20,256 bases of DNA from a virus. A model generated the notes under the pieces. It worked only from the letters and a program-made list of their open reading frames with translations, was not told where the DNA came from and ran no database searches. Each line of letters starts with the position of its first letter. The first letter of the stretch is position 1. Of this stretch, positions 1 through 12,425 are shown one piece after another. Both the position numbers and the translations under genes were made by a program. Where the stretch lies: the IMG/VR virus record IMGVR_UViG_3300009506_000218, positions 1 to 20,256 of that record; one strand, 5' to 3'.

Positions 1-78
1 CTGTATGTCGCGCATCGCACTCTTTTTCTACTGACAGAATTTTTATCGTTTTTCAATAAAATTGGAATCTGAGGCTTG

Positions 79-105
79 ACCTGAAATGATAAAAATCAGG
101 TTTTT
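79..105 (+). terminator. Weak terminator-like hairpin or small palindromic site
   Basis: ACCTGA (79-84) and TCAGGT (96-101) are exact reverse complements separated by 11 A-rich bases, and the 3' arm runs into five T (101-105). That is the shape of a short intrinsic terminator, but a 6-bp stem with a large loop is weak. It could equally be an operator. It lies upstream of the first gene of the late operon, so it would separate that operon from whatever lies to the left. Confidence 0.3.
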
Positions 106-107
106 GG

Positions 108-148
108 GATTCAAATTTTATTCAAGCTTTTATTGCAAAGTTTGAATC
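108..148. promoter_or_regulatory. Perfect 8-bp inverted repeat upstream of small terminase
   Basis: GATTCAAA at 108-115 and TTTGAATC at 141-148 are exact reverse complements separated by 25 AT-rich bases, and the right arm ends 19 bases before the start codon of the small terminase gene. A TTTAAT at 154-159 resembles a -10 box, but no convincing -35 box lies at the right distance (TTGCAA at 133-138 leaves only 15 bp). Late genes of Mu-type phages usually need an activator, so a binding site here is plausible, but this is inference. Confidence 0.3.
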
Positions 149-167
149 GGAGCTTTAATCTTGAACT

Positions 168-761
168 ATGGGAGAGAAAAAACAGAAGCAAGGAATGACT
201 AAGGCATCGATTGCTCGAAAGCTTGGTCTGGACAATTCGGCGATCACCTATGCTGTAAGGCGCTGCGACCTAGTATTGAATGAGGATGGCAGAATCAATC
301 CTGATGATGAGCGCAATCAAGCCTATTTTCGAAAGCACAAGACGGCTATTAAGGCATCTGGTGTCGGTGGGAGGGGCAAGCCTATTGTTACTGAAGACCC
401 CGACGAAATTGTGGGCAATTCTGTTGAACAGGGACGATTGCTGGATAACCAACTCAAGAAAGTTAAAATTCAGAGGGAACGGGTGGCCTATTTTGAAACT
501 ATACGAAGAGTTTATCCACGGGAAGTGGTGGCCAGAACCTTGAGTCTCATTCGTTCTCTGATAGATGAAAACTTCAAGGGCTTCGATGACCGATATGGAT
601 TCGAGATTTGGGAGACTGCGCGGGAACTAGAGCACCGTGAATTCTGTTTGTTTCTCTATCAGAAAATTGACGAATCAATGAGGGCGGTCTTTGCCGGCCT
701 AGATAGAGAACTTGAGAGAATCAAATCGGCCAAGCAGTTGCAACAAGACTTTGAAGCATGA
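168..761 (+). CDS. Small terminase subunit (Nu1-like, helix-turn-helix)
   Basis: Predicted DNA-recognition subunit of the packaging motor. The 197-aa product (lambda Nu1 is 181 aa) has an N-terminal helix-turn-helix-like segment at about residues 10-38 (TKASIARKLGLDNSAIT...), as expected for binding the packaging site. A charged, helical C-terminal half would contact the large subunit. The identification rests on this and on its position directly before the GpA-type large terminase, with which it shares an ATGA overlap. The ATG at 168 has only a distant GGAG (149-152). An in-frame ATG at 195 (residue 10) is the alternative start, but its AAGGA touches the ATG. I did not recognise a specific family by sequence alone. 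Confidence 0.7.
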   Translation: MGEKKQKQGMTKASIARKLGLDNSAITYAVRRCDLVLNEDGRINPDDERNQAYFRKHKTAIKASGVGGRGKPIVTEDPDEIVGNSVEQGRLLDNQLKKVKIQRERVAYFETIRRVYPREVVARTLSLIRSLIDENFKGFDDRYGFEIWETARELEHREFCLFLYQKIDESMRAVFAGLDRELERIKSAKQLQQDFEA

Positions 762-4785: not shown

Positions 4786-5112
4786 ATGCCACCAAAAGAC
4801 AATGACGATATGCTATTTGCTTGGCTCAAAGAGGAAACTGTACATATACGAAACTCATTAGGCGAGATACACAAAAAACTTGATACTCATCCCAAAGAAT
4901 GTCCGGCCCTGCAGGCATGGTTAAAAAAACCATCATTGCCACCCATGTCAAATGTTCCTTGGTGGAGTCTATTGGTAAAACTAGGCCCTTTCGTCTTAGC
5001 GGCGGCCCTTGGGTTACTTGGCCTTGGAGCGTATTACGGGAGCCAACAAAACACAGAAAAACTCGAAAACGACCTCAAGGCAGTAAGACAACTGCTTAAG
5101 GAGAGTGAATGA
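4786..5112 (+). CDS. Small single-pass membrane protein with coiled-coil flanks
   Basis: A 108-aa protein of unknown role. Residues 1-55 are charged and helical, with a CPAL cysteine at about 39. A hydrophobic segment of about 22 residues (about 59-80, LLVKLGPFVLAAALGLLGLG) should span the membrane, and residues 83-108 are again charged and helical. It starts on the base after the portal stop, with GGAGGAG at 4776-4782, and ends in an ATGA overlap with the protease gene, so it belongs to the operon. The N-helix/membrane/C-helix layout recalls small holin-associated proteins of the XhlA type, but the similarity is only in architecture. A membrane protein is not part of the lambda head gene order. 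No function is assigned. Confidence 0.8.
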   Translation: MPPKDNDDMLFAWLKEETVHIRNSLGEIHKKLDTHPKECPALQAWLKKPSLPPMSNVPWWSLLVKLGPFVLAAALGLLGLGAYYGSQQNTEKLENDLKAVRQLLKESE

Positions 5113-6518
5113 TGTATATTAGGGTACTTGAGGAAATATCACGCCATCTTTGGGCTATTTCTCAACCTGCCATTGATGCAATTATACGCATCGTGACAAT
5201 AGGCGAGGAACTTGAAGAGAGGTCCATTTTTCACGGCTCGGTTGTTACTGTTGAGGAACGAAAGGAACAAATAGAGGCGGCGGCGGGCAAGGCGCAAGAG
5301 TCTTATAAATACGGAGAGGTTTATGGTTCGATGGGTATTCTCCATGTGGATGGTCCTCTTGTTCCACGCGGGCAAGCTCAACCAGAGTCTTTGCCACAAA
5401 TTACTACCACATACGGACTACTTGCCGATTATGAAGCGATGCAATCCAACAAAAAGATTGATAGGATTGCGATGATTTTTGATACACCAGGAGGAGCGGT
5501 AACAGGTGGCACGGAGCTAGCGTCCGCAATCGCATCGGGTAAAAAACCAGTTGTTGCCTATGTGGAAGGGATGGCAGCTAGTCTGGGTTATCTCATAGCG
5601 AGTCACTGTGATGCTATTGTGGCAGCAAATACTGCTAGTTTAGGTAGTGTCGGAGTAGTAGCAAAAATCGAAGCAGGGCGAGACAAAAACATGGTTAAAT
5701 TTGTTTCTACTCAATCCCCTATGAAAAATGCAGACCCTACCACGGAAGATGGAGCAAAGTCATATCAGAAAATAGTCGATGATATGGCGGACGTTATAAT
5801 AGATTCTATTGCAACCGCTAGAGGCACAGACCGAGAAGACGTGATGGAAAATTACGGTCAAGGCGGGGTGGTAATCGCTTCGAGGGCAAAGGCCAAGAGT
5901 ATGATTGATGCGGTCATGACCCGAAAGCAATTCCTAACTGACTTCTCGGGTGATCTTGTAGCCGGATGTGGATGGCTCAAAAAAGGTCAAAGTAGAAAAT
6001 CAAAGGCACTGTCTCCAAAACATCAATTTGATTTAACCGAAAAAATGAGTACACAATCAAATAATGACGAACCGGCGCGAGCCGAAGAAACTAACGAAAG
6101 GACAGAAAACATGAAATTGGAAGAGCTTTTGACAGCGAATCCCGAAGCAAAAGGGGAATTCGACGCGGCTATTTCCAAGGCAAAAGAGGAGGCTCGCACC
6201 GCTTTGAGAACCGAGCTCAAGATTGCCGCTGAGACGGCATCCGGTGATGAGTACCCCTTGCCCGTCCGCAAAATAGCGGGCGAGGTTATCAAGGGTGAAA
6301 AGTCAATGGAAACCCTTGACGCCGTTATGGTGATTGCCGAAATGGAAAAAGAAAAAAAGAATTCCATGGCTGCACAGACCGCCACTAAAACACATGGGGA
6401 TACCCCTCCTGATGTGAGCATGAATAGCGGTCCTAGCTCGGATGGAAAAATTCGTAACACGGCGGACTATTACAAGGCCCTTGGTAAACCAGTGCCTATC
6501 GCCGGGGAGGTTAATTAA
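5109..6518 (+). CDS. Capsid maturation protease, peptidase S49 (lambda gpC-like) with C-terminal scaffold region
   Basis: Predicted serine protease that trims procapsid proteins. 469 aa (lambda gpC is 439 aa). The N-terminal part (about 70-290) is a ClpP/SppA-type fold with IFDTPGGAVTGG (123-134). The nucleophile is in GMAAS (Ser158), followed by YLIAS and ASLGSVGVV, and the likely general base is Lys206 in SPMKNADP. The Ser-Lys spacing of 48 resembles lambda gpC (Ser166/Lys218). Residues about 313-469 are charged, helical and scaffold-like and may also be made separately (see nested CDS). It starts at 5109 in an ATGA overlap with the membrane protein; a second ATG follows directly at 5112. 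Confidence 0.92.
   Translation: MMYIRVLEEISRHLWAISQPAIDAIIRIVTIGEELEERSIFHGSVVTVEERKEQIEAAAGKAQESYKYGEVYGSMGILHVDGPLVPRGQAQPESLPQITTTYGLLADYEAMQSNKKIDRIAMIFDTPGGAVTGGTELASAIASGKKPVVAYVEGMAASLGYLIASHCDAIVAANTASLGSVGVVAKIEAGRDKNMVKFVSTQSPMKNADPTTEDGAKSYQKIVDDMADVIIDSIATARGTDREDVMENYGQGGVVIASRAKAKSMIDAVMTRKQFLTDFSGDLVAGCGWLKKGQSRKSKALSPKHQFDLTEKMSTQSNNDEPARAEETNERTENMKLEELLTANPEAKGEFDAAISKAKEEARTALRTELKIAAETASGDEYPLPVRKIAGEVIKGEKSMETLDAVMVIAEMEKEKKNSMAAQTATKTHGDTPPDVSMNSGPSSDGKIRNTADYYKALGKPVPIAGEVN
6097..6102 (+). promoter_or_regulatory. Internal ribosome-binding site for nested scaffold
   Basis: AAAGGA lies inside the protease gene, 8 bases before the in-frame ATG at 6111. Its strength and spacing match those used by other genes in this operon. 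The earlier in-frame ATG at 6045 has no comparable sequence upstream, which is why I place the internal start at 6111. Confidence 0.55.
6111..6518 (+). CDS. Probable nested capsid scaffold protein (Nu3-like), in frame within the protease gene
   Basis: In lambda, the scaffold Nu3 is translated from an in-frame start inside gene C, so its sequence equals the protease C-terminus. The same arrangement is likely here. An ATG at 6111 (protease residue 335, MKLEELLTANPEAKGEF) has AAAGGA at 6097-6102, giving a 135-aa product ending at the shared stop. The product is rich in Glu, Lys and Ala, predicted helical from about its residue 1 to 85, then low-complexity, and ends in KIRNTADYYKALGKPV, a plausible capsid-binding tail. 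Supporting this, the protease domain proper ends near residue 290 and no other scaffold gene is present. Inferred from sequence and lambda precedent. Confidence 0.6.
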   Translation: MKLEELLTANPEAKGEFDAAISKAKEEARTALRTELKIAAETASGDEYPLPVRKIAGEVIKGEKSMETLDAVMVIAEMEKEKKNSMAAQTATKTHGDTPPDVSMNSGPSSDGKIRNTADYYKALGKPVPIAGEVN

Positions 6519-6520
6519 TC

Positions 6521-8074
6521 ATGGCTACTACACCTCTTTTTGTATCTCAGGCCGAGACTGACCACACGAATGTCCCTGTAATTCAGGGTGATGTGGTATA
6601 CCTCGAAGATGAGACAATCGCACAAGATGCCGCTAGAGTAGCTGCTCTTGCCGATATGACCTTAATGGCCAAAGTGGCCAGCTCCGGACAGTGGACTCCG
6701 CTTCGAGACGTTGACCCAGCGGCTACCCCTGGTTCGATGCTCACCGGGGCAATCGGAGCGGTCGAGACTTTCCAAGCCGTTTCGAACGGTTCATTCGGAA
6801 TCGCAATCGATGGAGAGACAGCATTCCAGGTATCAGCTCTGGACTTTTCAGATATCGAAGCTCCGACGGCAACCGGGGCAAGCTGCTTGACAGGCGCTCT
6901 CGGATGCACACTGGCAACCATGCAGGCAATTACGGACGGTGAGTTTGGAATTACCGTGGATGGCAATGCTCTGAGTATCACCGGACTCGATTTCAGTGAC
7001 ATCTACTCGATTTCGGATACAGCGGCGAAAGCAGTTTGCGGAGCAAACGGAACAAACCTGGCAGGATGGCAAGCGGTCGGTAACGGCGGTTTTGCAATCA
7101 CAGTAGACGGAATTACCTACACTTTCACTGACATGGATTTTGCAGGTATTTCCAAGCTCGCAGAGGTTGCGACTGTAATCAACGCACACGCAAAGGGAAC
7201 TCGCGTAAAATGCGCTTATGACAACGCTGGCGATGCATATCATTTCTACTCAACTACACGTGGACGGACTTCGACCATCACAGTTCTATCGGCTGGTACG
7301 ACAACTGATATTTCTGGAGCTGGATACCTCAACGGTACTGGCGCGACTCTAACGCAGGGCACCGGCGGCGATGGTCTGGGAACAAGTATCGCAGACGTAA
7401 TCAATCTTGCAGCGGCTGGGAAATTCGAGGTTTTCTACGATGCTGCTACTACCAAATTCCTCTTTCTCTCACCGAGGCGCGGAGCTATGAGCACAATCAC
7501 AGCTCTAAGCGACCCGAGCGGCGGCGGTACTGACATCTCCGACTCTGGACATCTCAACGGTAGGACGGGAACTGCTACTCTGACACAGGGTACAGGCGAT
7601 GCAGGAGCGGATACGACCATCGTTGACGTAATCAATGACAAGGCGGCGGGTAGATTTACCGCTTACTGGTCTGGTACTAAAATCAGGTTCGTTTCGCCTA
7701 CACTGGGAGTCAATTCAGCGGTTGCAGTACTCACGGCGGGTACTACCGGAACTGACATCTCAGGAGCTTCCTACCTGAACGGGTTGACCGGTACAGGAGT
7801 TGCAACGGCGGGAACTGGTCTCGATGGTTCTCACCTCCCAGCGGGTATTTACCGAGGTGGCTCAATCGCAGCGGCTTCAATCGTAGCAGGTACTACGACC
7901 GGATGCATAGTCATCCCGAACAAAAACATAGTCATGGAGGATTACTTGGTACTTGAGAATTCGCTTGACCTGGATAGCTCAATCATAACTCAATTCCCTA
8001 TGACTATAAGAGATTATCTACATTCAATTGGGTTCATTCCACAAACCGTCAAGTTGGCTGACGCGAATGCATAA
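6521..8074 (+). CDS. Head decoration protein, gpD-like, split by a large tandem-repeat insert
   Basis: It sits in the lambda D position, between protease/scaffold and major capsid protein. Residues about 1-73 (ETIAQDAARVAALADMTLMA...DPAATPGS) and about 438-517 (LPAGIYRGGSIAAASIVAGT...IRDYLHSIGFIP) read as the two halves of one gpD-like capsid-stabilising protein. Joined, they would be about 153 aa, against 110 for lambda gpD. Between them are about 365 residues of Gly/Thr/Ala/Asp-rich repeats: three ~50-aa units (F/WQAV.NG.F.I.VDG...DFS) and three ~75-aa units (INA..G...TDISG..YLNG..AT.TQGTG). The second kind resembles modules I associate with DUF3383-type tail sheath proteins. GGGGAGG (6504-6510) precedes the ATG. 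The insert would project from the capsid surface. The decoration assignment rests on position and on the flanking halves. Confidence 0.72.
   Translation: MATTPLFVSQAETDHTNVPVIQGDVVYLEDETIAQDAARVAALADMTLMAKVASSGQWTPLRDVDPAATPGSMLTGAIGAVETFQAVSNGSFGIAIDGETAFQVSALDFSDIEAPTATGASCLTGALGCTLATMQAITDGEFGITVDGNALSITGLDFSDIYSISDTAAKAVCGANGTNLAGWQAVGNGGFAITVDGITYTFTDMDFAGISKLAEVATVINAHAKGTRVKCAYDNAGDAYHFYSTTRGRTSTITVLSAGTTTDISGAGYLNGTGATLTQGTGGDGLGTSIADVINLAAAGKFEVFYDAATTKFLFLSPRRGAMSTITALSDPSGGGTDISDSGHLNGRTGTATLTQGTGDAGADTTIVDVINDKAAGRFTAYWSGTKIRFVSPTLGVNSAVAVLTAGTTGTDISGASYLNGLTGTGVATAGTGLDGSHLPAGIYRGGSIAAASIVAGTTTGCIVIPNKNIVMEDYLVLENSLDLDSSIITQFPMTIRDYLHSIGFIPQTVKLADANA
6740..7159 (+). repeat. Type A tandem repeats in decoration protein (3 units of ~50 aa)
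   Basis: Three consecutive protein-level repeats occupy residues about 74-122, 123-172 and 173-213. Each begins with a TGA(I/L)G- or GANG-like segment and continues as a beta-rich core, (F/M/W)QA(V/I).(N/D)G.F.I.VDG, followed by (L/M)DF(S/A)(D/G)I. The QA positions (85, 135, 184) are 50 and 49 residues apart. The third unit runs directly into the first type B unit. Codons have diverged, so these are old duplications rather than fresh DNA repeats. Confidence 0.75.
7160..7816 (+). repeat. Type B tandem repeats in decoration protein (3 units of ~75 aa)
   Basis: Three protein-level repeats at residues about 214-281, 287-358 and 365-432. Each has a (A/V)(T/D)VIN....G helix (the IN pairs are at 220, 294 and 371), then a strand pair ending in F.S...G..S.(I/V), then TDIS(G/D)..(Y/H)LNG and a T..GTG. 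motif. The spacing is 74 and 77 residues. Unit 3 is followed directly by the second half of the decoration domain. Confidence 0.78.
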
Positions 8075-8084
8075 GGAGTAAAAA

Positions 8085-9308
8085 ATGAATACTGAGACAT
8101 TAGCAGCACAGAGCCTCTTCAGTCGTTTAATGATTGAAGGGATTGACCTGTCCAAGCTGCTCGCAGTCCCTTGCGGTTTTCAGTCGCTGTTCGGTCCGCC
8201 AATGGGCAACGGTGGACGGACGCGCTATGTGACCGACTCGCGAGCAATTGACGTCGATGTCCGAAAAGGTAACAGAGGATTTTCGACACCGCTACACCGT
8301 GGTATTGTCGGCAAGGCAATGAACAAACCAAAACACGTATCAGGTAAGTTCACAAGCTTTGCGCGAACATTCCCACTCTTGCATGATACCGGGCTTGTAA
8401 CTGCCGACCAGTTACTTGAGCGCGTATTCGACGAGGAGCCTTGGCAACCTCTTACTCAGTTTGCCAGAGCACAACGTAACGCACGTGACGTAGTTGCTGA
8501 CATCGTACTCGACCATATTTATTGGATGGAGTATGCAGCGGTTCAGATGGTCAAAACCGGTAAGATGGATTTGATTTACGGTACGTCCTCGAGCGATGAG
8601 CGGATAGACACTAAGCGCGATTCAAACCACACCTATACGGCTCCGGCATCGTGGGCAACGGCTGGGACTTCGATTCTCGACCACCTTGACTCGATGGCTA
8701 CACTGATTATTGAGGATGCAAACAAGGTTCCCGATGTTCTCATAGTCGGTGGAAGTGTACCGGGGTATCTGGCAGCAAATACCGAAATACAGACGTACGC
8801 GAATCTAAAGGCGGCTGGCACGGCTGGTTTCTCAATTGTTTGGTTCGGTGACAACTATGTGGTAGAGCCTAGATTTGCTCACATGATTGCAAATGGTTTC
8901 AACCCACTGTGTAAAGTGATTACCAAGAAAGGTCGCAAGATTAATATCTTCACCTACGAGGGTAACTACGTCGTATCTGGCTCATCGACTTACTACATGG
9001 GAGCCGACGAGGTTGTCATGATGAGCTCCAAGGCTGCATGTGATAGGTACTTCGGGCCACCGGAGAAACTAACTCCTACTCAACAGATGCAAGCGGATTG
9101 GAATTCTCTGTTCGGTTTCGACCCTGAGAATATCCAGTTACCGCCAAACATAGACGCGACTCCTGAGGTTATTGATAGACGATGCTTCTCTTGCGACGTA
9201 AGACGTAACGAGCAGAACACTGCTTTCGAGGTATCAGTCCAGGCGGCTCCGATGTATGTAACCCGCGACACTGACGCATTTGTGTATTGTGCCGACGTGA
9301 CACCATAG
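8085..9308 (+). CDS. Major capsid protein, lambda gpE family
   Basis: Forms the icosahedral shell. 407 aa (lambda gpE is 341 aa). The order of elements fits the gpE/HK97-type fold: an N-terminal arm, RTRYVTDSRAIDVDVRKGNRG, a beta-rich E-loop-like region with FSTPLHRGIVGKAMNKP, a long helical segment around QLLERVFDEEPWQPLTQFAR and later P-domain and A-domain strands ending in VQAAPMYVTRDTDAFVYCADV. It has one of the strongest ribosome-binding sites in the window (AAGGAG at 8073-8078, 6 bases before ATG), as expected for the most abundant structural protein. It lies directly after the decoration gene, as in lambda D-E. Confidence 0.9.
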   Translation: MNTETLAAQSLFSRLMIEGIDLSKLLAVPCGFQSLFGPPMGNGGRTRYVTDSRAIDVDVRKGNRGFSTPLHRGIVGKAMNKPKHVSGKFTSFARTFPLLHDTGLVTADQLLERVFDEEPWQPLTQFARAQRNARDVVADIVLDHIYWMEYAAVQMVKTGKMDLIYGTSSSDERIDTKRDSNHTYTAPASWATAGTSILDHLDSMATLIIEDANKVPDVLIVGGSVPGYLAANTEIQTYANLKAAGTAGFSIVWFGDNYVVEPRFAHMIANGFNPLCKVITKKGRKINIFTYEGNYVVSGSSTYYMGADEVVMMSSKAACDRYFGPPEKLTPTQQMQADWNSLFGFDPENIQLPPNIDATPEVIDRRCFSCDVRRNEQNTAFEVSVQAAPMYVTRDTDAFVYCADVTP

Positions 9309-10169: not shown

Positions 10170-10825
10170 CAATGAACTTTCGTCTAGTAAAGACAGGGAT
10201 TGAAGGTATCCTGAGTAACTATGCCTCAACGGGTGGCTATCGAGTATTGGGGTACAATGATGACGCAATCGACGCAGAAGATTTGCTAGGTACTCGAAGA
10301 TTAGTCCAAGTTTATGCGGACGGTGGAGACTTCAACGGTGGAGGATTCAACGGGCCAGCAAAGCACGATGTCACATTCGCAATTGATTTGCTGACAAGTG
10401 CAAAGGCTCAAGTAGACCTTACCGTTATTGACGATGAGACCTCGACAGCGGTTGAGATAGCGGCTGCAATGGCAGCGGCTCAAGCTGCATCCAAACTAGC
10501 AAACGATGACCTAGACGAATTCATTGACGTGATTTTCAATCTACTCATGGATAATACTAATCTGAATATGGGAGTTAGTGAATTGGTTGCGAGCGTTGGT
10601 AATCGATGGATACCAAAGTGGAAAAAAAGTAAGCCCATGACTCGTGGCGATATGGTTGTTCTCCATGCTACTATGGACTTAACATGTCGCGTAATGGAAG
10701 ACTTCGCCGGGGTAACGCCAGTGGCAGCAACCGAGGGTGAAGCAGTAAAAACTATTTTCAAACTGAAAACTGACGAGGACGCCGAGCTGGATGACGGGCT
10801 CGCCGCATCCCAGGCAGGAGGTTAA
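10166..10825 (+). CDS. Neck or tail-terminator protein candidate
   Basis: A 219-aa protein between the connector and the tail sheath, where tailed phages carry tail-completion/terminator genes (lambda Z/U; Mu 37-38). It has an N-terminal segment, a mid-region with YADGGDFNGGGFNGPAKHDVTFAIDLL, an Ala-rich helix around residues 96-112, and a C-terminal beta-rich part ending in VLHATMDLTCRV before an acidic tail. The alternation of strands and a central helix is compatible with a tail terminator fold, but no diagnostic motif was recognised. ATGA overlap with the preceding gene. The ribosome-binding site of the next gene lies across its stop codon. Confidence 0.5.
   Translation: MTMNFRLVKTGIEGILSNYASTGGYRVLGYNDDAIDAEDLLGTRRLVQVYADGGDFNGGGFNGPAKHDVTFAIDLLTSAKAQVDLTVIDDETSTAVEIAAAMAAAQAASKLANDDLDEFIDVIFNLLMDNTNLNMGVSELVASVGNRWIPKWKKSKPMTRGDMVVLHATMDLTCRVMEDFAGVTPVAATEGEAVKTIFKLKTDEDAELDDGLAASQAGG
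10816..10821 (+). promoter_or_regulatory. Strong ribosome-binding site deciding the sheath start
   Basis: AGGAGG lies 8 bases before ATG 10830 and sits inside the last codons of the preceding gene. It makes 10830 the start of the sheath gene rather than an upstream in-frame ATG at 10791, which has no such site and would add 13 unrelated residues. Confidence 0.8.
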
Positions 10826-10829
10826 AAAG

Positions 10830-12425
10830 ATGGGAAATATCATAACCGCCGATAGCTACGCAGCGGGCGTCGGAGTCGGCATAGAAAACAAAGCCTTTGC
10901 GCTTGCCATAGAAAACCGACCTCAAAAGATTTTGATTGTCGGAGCGGCACTTGCAGCAAAGGCAGGAACATACGTCGCCAACACCCCGAGACGAATGTAC
11001 TCAGGAGATGAGGCTGGCGGACGGTACGGTCTGGGTGGCTCCTTGGATATCACTCTGAGGGCTTGTTGGGCAGTCCATAAAGGAGCAGTTGAGACTTATG
11101 TTGCACCTCAAGCAGAGAGTGGAACTGGAGTTGCTGCTACAGTAGGCGGAATTGAATTCACTAACGCGGTTACAACTAACGGTTACATGTACATCTATGT
11201 AGCTGGTACCTTGTACAAAATATGGGCTACGACTGATGATACTATTAGTGAGCTCGGTGACCTGCTTGTAGCGGCTCTAGCGGCAGACCCTCATTGTCCG
11301 GTAACAGGTGTCAATACTGCGGGTGACGTGGTATTCACGTGCAAAGAGAAGGGCACTTGGGGTAATGACATCTCCATATCGTTCAACGAAAAGGGAGAGG
11401 ATACCCCGGCTGGATTGGCATACACAATCACCCCACTCTCGACCGGAGCGAATGACCCGAGTATTGCTGATGTATTGGCAGTTATGGGAGCGGATGACAA
11501 CGCGAACGCGGACGCATACACAATCATAGTACCAACTTATGACAAACTCGGTGATACCACGATGGATGCTCTGTCTGAGTACAACGGTACTGGTAACGAG
11601 ATTGAGGGTTGTTATGCCGAGACCGTAAGACGTCCTTTTGTGGCTCTGTATGGCGATAACGATGAGGGTACCGATGCAAAGGCGGCGCTTGTAGTGATAG
11701 GGACTGCCAGGAGAGCGCTCGACCGGACCAATGGAGTTGTCCCGGTTCCCTGCTCGCCCAATCATCCTAGCGCGATTGCTGGCGCGGCGGCGGGACTCAT
11801 TGCAAAGACTGCTCACATCAGACCGAACGAGGATTACTATGACAAGGTTCTGACAGGTATTCTGCCAGGACTAAGAGCAACGATTGCGGCATCTACCGGT
11901 CGATGGACTGACAATTATGTGAACCGTAAAGCAGCGGTTGAGGCTGGCGTAGGGACTACGGTCATCGAGGAGAACGTTGTCAAGCTCCAAAACATGCTCA
12001 CTTTCTATCACCCTGAATCGGTTGCAATGGCATCGAACGGATACAGGGCAATTCGTGATATCATGATTTCGATGAGTGTCATCAAGGCTCACTACGATAT
12101 ATTCAATACTGAGGAGTGGGATGGTATCTCGATTGTGGCGGACGTGGCCAAGGTAGGCAACGCAACGGCCAAAGCAAAGGTCCGAGATTGGAGGTCAGTT
12201 TTTGGAACGCTTTGTCAGCTTGCAGATGAATTTGAGAATCGTGGATGGATTTATGAATCTGCGTGGACCAAAGAGACCATAGCCGCAGACATAGATACAT
12301 ACATATCACTAAGAGAAGGCGGCACGGGATGGGATACCATTCTACCTCTGGTCTATAGTGGCAAGGGTGGAATACTCAACGCGACGGTTCAGTTTGATGT
12401 AAACTTGGCCGTAATAACCGGTTAA
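10830..12425 (+). CDS. Contractile tail sheath protein (Mu gpL-like)
   Basis: Forms the outer tube that contracts to drive the tail tube through the host envelope. 531 aa (Mu gpL is 495 aa). The N-terminus (NIITADSYAAGVGVGIENKA... QKILIVGAALA) and the central inserted beta-domain (GGIEFTNAV...TLYKIWATTDDTISELGDLL...GTWGNDISISFNEKGE) match Mu-type sheaths. So does the C-terminal conserved region (ENVVKLQNMLTFYHP ... NTEEWDGISIVADV). The start at 10830 is chosen by AGGAGG at 10816-10821. The tail-tube gene follows 13 bases later, the usual sheath-tube pair. Confidence 0.9.
   Translation: MGNIITADSYAAGVGVGIENKAFALAIENRPQKILIVGAALAAKAGTYVANTPRRMYSGDEAGGRYGLGGSLDITLRACWAVHKGAVETYVAPQAESGTGVAATVGGIEFTNAVTTNGYMYIYVAGTLYKIWATTDDTISELGDLLVAALAADPHCPVTGVNTAGDVVFTCKEKGTWGNDISISFNEKGEDTPAGLAYTITPLSTGANDPSIADVLAVMGADDNANADAYTIIVPTYDKLGDTTMDALSEYNGTGNEIEGCYAETVRRPFVALYGDNDEGTDAKAALVVIGTARRALDRTNGVVPVPCSPNHPSAIAGAAAGLIAKTAHIRPNEDYYDKVLTGILPGLRATIAASTGRWTDNYVNRKAAVEAGVGTTVIEENVVKLQNMLTFYHPESVAMASNGYRAIRDIMISMSVIKAHYDIFNTEEWDGISIVADVAKVGNATAKAKVRDWRSVFGTLCQLADEFENRGWIYESAWTKETIAADIDTYISLREGGTGWDTILPLVYSGKGGILNATVQFDVNLAVITG

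Follow-up and report, generated by a model that had tools for sequence, protein, structure and literature searches.

A gpD-like phage decoration protein that probably carries a triple-nested DUF3383-type module spike

The gpD-family proteins that we fetched are 99-140 aa long, and an insert is absent from all 80 of 80, whereas a 517-aa viral protein that we assign to the same kind of gene slot has 365 aa inserted after an ATxDG motif and before xPAGI. The question raised by this locus is what the inserted residues are and how they are arranged within the protein. The stretch of DNA that was analysed (the window) is an entire IMG/VR viral record of 20,256 bases carrying contractile tail genes and lambda-type packaging genes. 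The gene of interest is an open reading frame that begins with ATG and has a GGGAGG-like ribosome site upstream; its product is labelled P0001 in our comparisons. The gene, the two parts of its core and the neighbours that mark the slot are as follows.

6521..8074, + strand: decoration protein gene (517 aa), gpD-like core with a probable triple nested module (open reading frame; gene slot)
6521..6736, + strand: N-terminal part of the gpD core, aa 1-72 (homology to the empty-site proteins of L174, L259, L260, L261 and L335)
7832..8074, + strand: C-terminal part of the gpD core, aa 438-517, plus stop (homology to empty-site decoration proteins)
5109..6518, + strand: S49/ClpP-like prohead protease, upstream slot marker (Pfam PF01343, E 7.8e-16)
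8085..9308, + strand: major head protein, downstream slot marker (phrog_29, E 5e-23)

The order of S49 protease, decoration gene and gpE-type major capsid gene is that of the lambda-type decoration slot, and it is identical in seven annotated phages (Vib1009, Lily, WO, SNW-1, X29, AcaML1 and ZRG1). Because the slot gene in these seven phages is short (117-131 aa) and is named ‘head decoration protein’ in most of them, the 517-aa protein can be assigned to the decoration slot. Clade relatives of the window keep this synteny as well. Two of them have an additional 1.5-3 kb between portal and protease (L174:5744-7261 and L255:5723-8936), where the window has only a small open reading frame (4786-5112).

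The original prediction read the two ends of the protein as one gpD-like decoration protein. Direct comparisons did not reveal this kinship: neither the 517-aa protein nor its joined ends matched HDPD or phrog_49 in Pfam and PHROGs, the same queries did not reveal gpD among PDB sequences or by tblastn in phages, and the single spliced sequence gave no significant hhalign match to a profile of 87 gpD sequences (3 of 200 shuffles were equally good). The joined ends do, however, match gpD by way of relatives. They align over nearly their full length with the empty-site protein of L174 (34% identity, 57 bits), which in turn matches HDPD (PF02924) with 27.7 bits and E 3.2e-6, slightly below the Pfam cut-off of 29.1, and phrog_49 (head decoration) with E 1.6e-7. 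When the core alignment of ten clade sequences is compared with the independent profile of 87 gpD sequences, hhalign returns a probability of 97% and E 1.3e-10. An AF2 model of the L174 protein is weak (pLDDT 59) and was built from clade sequences only, with gpD left out of the alignment; in Foldseek its top match is lambda gpD (1c5e; prob 0.98, E 0.025), and next come pD, SHP and further decoration proteins (VIA Z 4-6). The likeness to lambda gpD (HDPD; PF02924, phrog_49) and to phage 21 SHP extends to gene slot, short core, profile and probably the fold of the empty-site relatives, which in gpD is a beta-tulip. Slot synteny and the family match support the predicted gpD-like core, although the direct match of the joined ends is not significant alone, and the kinship is visible only through relatives. 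The predicted break point was right within a few residues, as empty-site relatives read ...DETATDGTQ followed at once by FPAGIL... where the window reads ...DVDPAATPGS, then the 365 aa, then HLPAGIY....

The insert itself had been described as six tandem repeats of two types, the second of which was said to resemble modules of DUF3383 tail sheaths. The resemblance is real: Pfam DUF3383 (PF11863) matches the 517-aa protein in three stretches with E 3.2e-20, using only profile positions 97-199 of 493, so that the matched region is the insertion domain only and the sheath NTD and CTD are absent from the match. The proteins that tblastn matched in annotated phages either are tail sheaths or lack an annotation, and those inspected sit in the sheath position. 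To locate the pieces, half-module HMMs were made from 28 sheath modules of other phages, with A as the N-half (helix plus hairpin) and B as the C-half (helix plus three strands). Exactly three A stretches were found (aa 82-110, 130-159 and 176-209; E 8e-12, 2e-11 and 2e-11), and after them three B stretches (211-280, 290-357 and 370-427; E 3e-13, 1e-9 and 2e-9), giving the order A1 A2 A3 B1 B2 B3 with all E <= 2.4e-9. Among 1000 shuffled inserts there were no A matches and three B matches, the best with E 0.015. Self-comparison yields periods of 49-50 aa for A and 73-77 aa for B. The six halves, with the evidence for each, lie as follows.

6737..6883, + strand: A1 half-module, aa 73-121, helix-hairpin, profile positions 7-36 (half-module HMMs, module profile, model)
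6884..7024, + strand: A2 half-module, aa 122-168, profile positions 6-45 (half-module HMMs, module profile, model)
7025..7150, + strand: A3 half-module, aa 169-210, running straight on into B1 so that profile positions 4-105 are covered without a break (HMMs, profile, model)
7151..7372, + strand: B1 half-module, aa 211-284, which together with A3 makes up the complete module at the centre and has the fold of the XM1 sheath insertion domain (HMMs, profile; VIA Z 13.7 to 7kh1)
7373..7600, + strand: B2 half-module, aa 285-360, profile positions 42-105, probable partner A2 (HMMs, profile, model, Cys test)
7601..7831, + strand: B3 half-module, aa 361-437, profile positions 45-98, probable partner A1 (HMMs, profile, model, Cys test)

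Other families gave little: Flagellin_IN (PF07196) scored 15.4 bits on the insert against a cut-off of 22.7 (E 0.022), no Ig family matched in Pfam, and Ig chains appeared only as weak Foldseek rows with E 0.4 and worse. We considered whether the insert had been derived from the sheath that this phage itself encodes (10830-12425, phrog_165) and rejected the idea, as hhalign found no similarity. The probable start of that sheath gene is the ATG at 10830, with AGGAGG upstream and relatives aligning from there, and not the longest-frame start at 10791.

When the halves are placed on a profile of the whole module (105 positions), their arrangement becomes apparent, and their ranges complement each other: A1 covers 7-36 and B3 covers 45-98, A2 covers 6-45 and B2 covers 42-105, while A3-B1 runs unbroken from 4 to 105. 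By these profile coordinates, one complete module is central and two others are split around it. A and B are therefore complementary halves of one module of ~123 aa and not two kinds of unit, and instead of six tandem repeats of two types the protein contains a single domain three times over, divided into halves in the order AAABBB. The regular periods of about 50 and 75 aa might also be taken to indicate six independent small repeats, with an A hairpin array and a B array that fold and pack separately. We consider this very improbable, given that A plus B is one contiguous AB module in about 80 other proteins and a single domain in 7kh1. Recursive insertion is the simplest reading of the order, the complementary halves and the equal counts. 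The architecture that we judge very probable is gpD-N(A1(A2(A3 B1)B2)B3)gpD-C, a triple-nested DUF3383-type module spike in a gpD-like decoration protein.

A scan for half-modules in 330 loci revealed a single AB in 79 open reading frames and the AAABBB order in three places, namely the window gene, L255 and L115. The last of these (L115:1063-3987) is a DUF3383-type tail sheath with an open frame of 974 aa. Its profile pieces are A1 6-31 with B3 29-100, A2 3-29 with B2 30-95, and a complete copy at 4-101, with a break that falls earlier than in the window. This tail sheath appears to show the same nesting as the window decoration protein, and the fact that the module is broken elsewhere while its halves are again complementary argues against separate tandem arrays. 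One B half of this sheath also contains an additional insert that is unrelated. In L097 (open reading frame from 2201) and L113 (from about 2200), a domain of another type splits the B half of the sheath module, a different case in which an inserted domain has itself received an insert. Contrasting with nesting, the sheaths of L161 and L164 (open reading frame from 2153) have two modules in ordinary tandem, AB AB. The module also occurs in non-sheath open reading frames of L112, L114, L139 and L145, of which that of L112 reads as baseplate-spike-like with collagen-like repeats. Its presence in such non-sheath frames suggests that the module moves among virion proteins.

Relatives of the decoration protein were less easily obtained. 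First scans of viral contigs with the decoration protein, capsid protein and terminase found no relative, and a scan of genome contigs found one distant terminase only; relatives were reached only via alignments of the terminase (window plus L174) and of the decoration protein. Ten clade decoration genes, that of the window included, were then read. Three have the AAABBB order (P0001, L255 and L332), two have AABB (L333 and L334), and five have an empty site and a protein of 144-157 aa (L174, L259, L260, L261 and L335). Repeat number is variable among homologues, as had been suggested for inspection, and the repeats are not a constant part of a long family, since five relatives lack the insert and two have a shorter one. 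The number of A halves equals the number of B halves in every one of the ten proteins (3, 2 or 0). Separate arrays predict no such parity, which is seen as 3/3, 3/3, 3/3, 2/2 and 2/2 in the insert carriers.

The closest relative found is L334, with 60% identity to the window in TerL, 58% in the portal, 62% in the MCP and 70% in the sheath. It has two modules and the window three, so the change in depth is fairly recent. Relative to the window, 49 + 74 aa, or one module, are missing from both L333 and L334. In the L334 alignment, removal of a single block (aa 166-288) scores 1188, nearly as good as the 1199 of the best removal of two blocks. A tree of the core places the insert carriers together with weak support (0.75), joins the window and L334 at 0.99, and adds L332 at 0.97. 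The contigs of L255 (depth three) and L334 (depth two) both come from metagenome 3300009506, a single sample.

Nesting implies a specific pairing of the halves, and cysteines provide one way to examine it. The comparison is between a Cys in the first strand of A and one in the B strand that follows the helix; nested pairing is concordant in 11 of 13 cases and parallel pairing in 5 of 13. The test is post hoc; its value of 11 is the maximum over 864 pairings and is reached by 32 of them. One pair consists of aa 173 (7037-7039, xCGAxG, innermost A) and aa 231 (7211-7213, VxCxYD, innermost B); it is present in four of the five proteins that bear an insert, and a disulphide between Cys173 and Cys231 in the innermost module is possible. 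Congruence of identities is best for nesting when P0001 is compared with L255 and not when it is compared with L332; being supportive in one protein pair and not in the other, it was rejected as proof of pairing. The idea of a faster-evolving tip domain was likewise dropped, as it is true against L255 and the opposite holds against L332. The inner pairing A3-B1 is solid, and we infer the outer pairings in space, A1-B3 and A2-B2. These outer pairings leave some room for three AB domains with crossed or domain-swapped halves, for example between subunits of a trimer. The gpD protein forms trimers at three-fold sites of the capsid, where it stabilises the head, and an exchange between neighbours is thinkable. 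We nevertheless regard swapping as quite improbable, given that nested pairing alone needs no chain crossing, that cysteine concordance is maximal for nesting, and that parity and the one-block change in depth fit nesting directly.

AF2 was applied to the full 517-aa protein with 28 alignment rows, giving a mean pLDDT of 71.6 and pTM 0.40, with the outer modules mostly at pLDDT 50-80. The model has two strands in every A half and a helix-strand-strand-strand order in every B half. In VIA comparisons, the modelled A3-B1 resembles the XM1 sheath insertion domain (7kh1, residues 95-214) with Z 13.7 over 113 residues at 2.1 A and 34% identity, the E217 and Pa193 sheaths with Z 11-13, Vibrio flagellins with Z 8.2-8.6 and FliD with Z about 7. 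The likeness to FliD and flagellin is taken as a resemblance of fold only, and the Z range for FliD may mean just a common arrangement. Two discontinuous VIA rows span model residues 70..490 (9yh1_A1) and 67..426 (9d94_Jh), and these would fit packing of A1 against B3 without proving it.

Patchy presence, with some relatives lacking the insert, could be explained if the insert had no function on the virion, being either an artefact of assembly or a passenger that is neutral or in decay. This explanation is hardly credible, as L255, an independent contig, shares the architecture at 54% identity and its frame is intact. Between the window and L255, pN/pS is 0.27-0.47 across the six halves and 0.27-0.56 in all parts, with synonymous sites saturated, and this range shows that every part is under constraint. 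The insert modules are also better conserved (48-69% identity) than the core (45%), TerL (45%), portal (39%) and MCP (33%).

If the nested reading is correct, a surface domain of ~123 aa, the InD of DUF3383 sheaths, would have been inserted into one loop of a gpD-like protein; the beta2-alpha1 loop of this domain would have received a second copy, and the corresponding loop of that copy a third. The chain would then lead outward via A1, A2 and A3, reverse direction in the tip domain A3-B1 and come back via B1, B2 and B3, with two strands or chain crossings joining each domain to the next, as in flagellin D1-D2-D3. The result would be a stiff three-domain spike on each decoration subunit, presumably exposed outside the capsid. 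Because the innermost module is contiguous, a single deletion or insertion of ~123 aa would shift the spike by one domain and leave the fold intact. That recursive insertion of the module into its own loop serves as a growth rule, at work separately in a tail sheath and in a decoration protein of the capsid, with spike length adjusted in whole domains by indels at the innermost site, seems to us reasonably likely.

The lambda capsid is coated with hundreds of gpD molecules, and at such numbers the spikes would cover the virion. If Hoc and FliD are taken as analogues, the likeliest use would be weak adhesion to the host or to surfaces in the environment; the adhesion to host or mucus named in the original prediction is a hypothesis of the same kind. 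The main rival on function accepts the same nested architecture and assigns it to capsid stabilisation or shielding, through spacing of virions or hiding of the capsid. We hold this role to be a tentative but real possibility: gpD proteins cement capsids, some decoration domains serve dispersal or stability, and loss of T4 Hoc promotes aggregation (PMC7602432). However, the short core alone fills the slot in five relatives, which implies that cementing proceeds without the insert, and the kin of the insert sit on exposed parts of tails and flagella.

Several known systems share some of these properties. The solved InD of XM1 gp6 (aa 95-214) is an inserted domain that its authors liken to FliD D3 (PMC10457771). 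It is the same module by sequence and fold and is likewise inserted, but XM1 has one copy in a tail sheath whereas the window has three nested copies in a capsid protein. In flagellins, the N- and C-terminal moieties of domains are nested and some domains are mutually homologous (PMC8306008). The outer domains D2-D3 (-D4, D5) of flagellin and FliD thus offer a related fold with nested moieties, although in a cellular appendage rather than in a capsid protein with self-nesting of variable depth. Hoc-type decoration proteins have two or three Ig domains among related phages (PMC11821841), and T4 Hoc, Sf14 gp20 and T5 pb10 are capsid-borne spikes whose domain number varies, as here. Their Ig domains are strung one after another next to the domain that binds the capsid, in contrast to a different fold nested inside a gpD core. 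Deep nesting, up to six levels, is also seen in SI3 of cyanobacterial RNA polymerase (PMC13114784), which is part of a cellular enzyme and has another fold. Displayed domains on decoration proteins, variable Ig number, the InD fold, and nesting in flagellins and RNA polymerase are therefore already known. The literature searched, which lacks most subscription journals, yielded no paper on gpD-type proteins with inserts that are nested or differ in depth, nor any account of a single module self-nested at variable depth in a capsid protein of this type.

If true, the finding would represent a natural form of phage display on gpD, achieved by internal insertion instead of terminal fusion, and would mark a gpD loop that tolerates 250-370 residues. 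It would also provide a compact case of recursive nesting, with depths of zero, two and three in related phages that include one pair of close sisters. Such a case would make testable the origin and loss of nested domains, the relationship of depth to spike length, and the involvement of capsid spikes in binding to hosts or surfaces.
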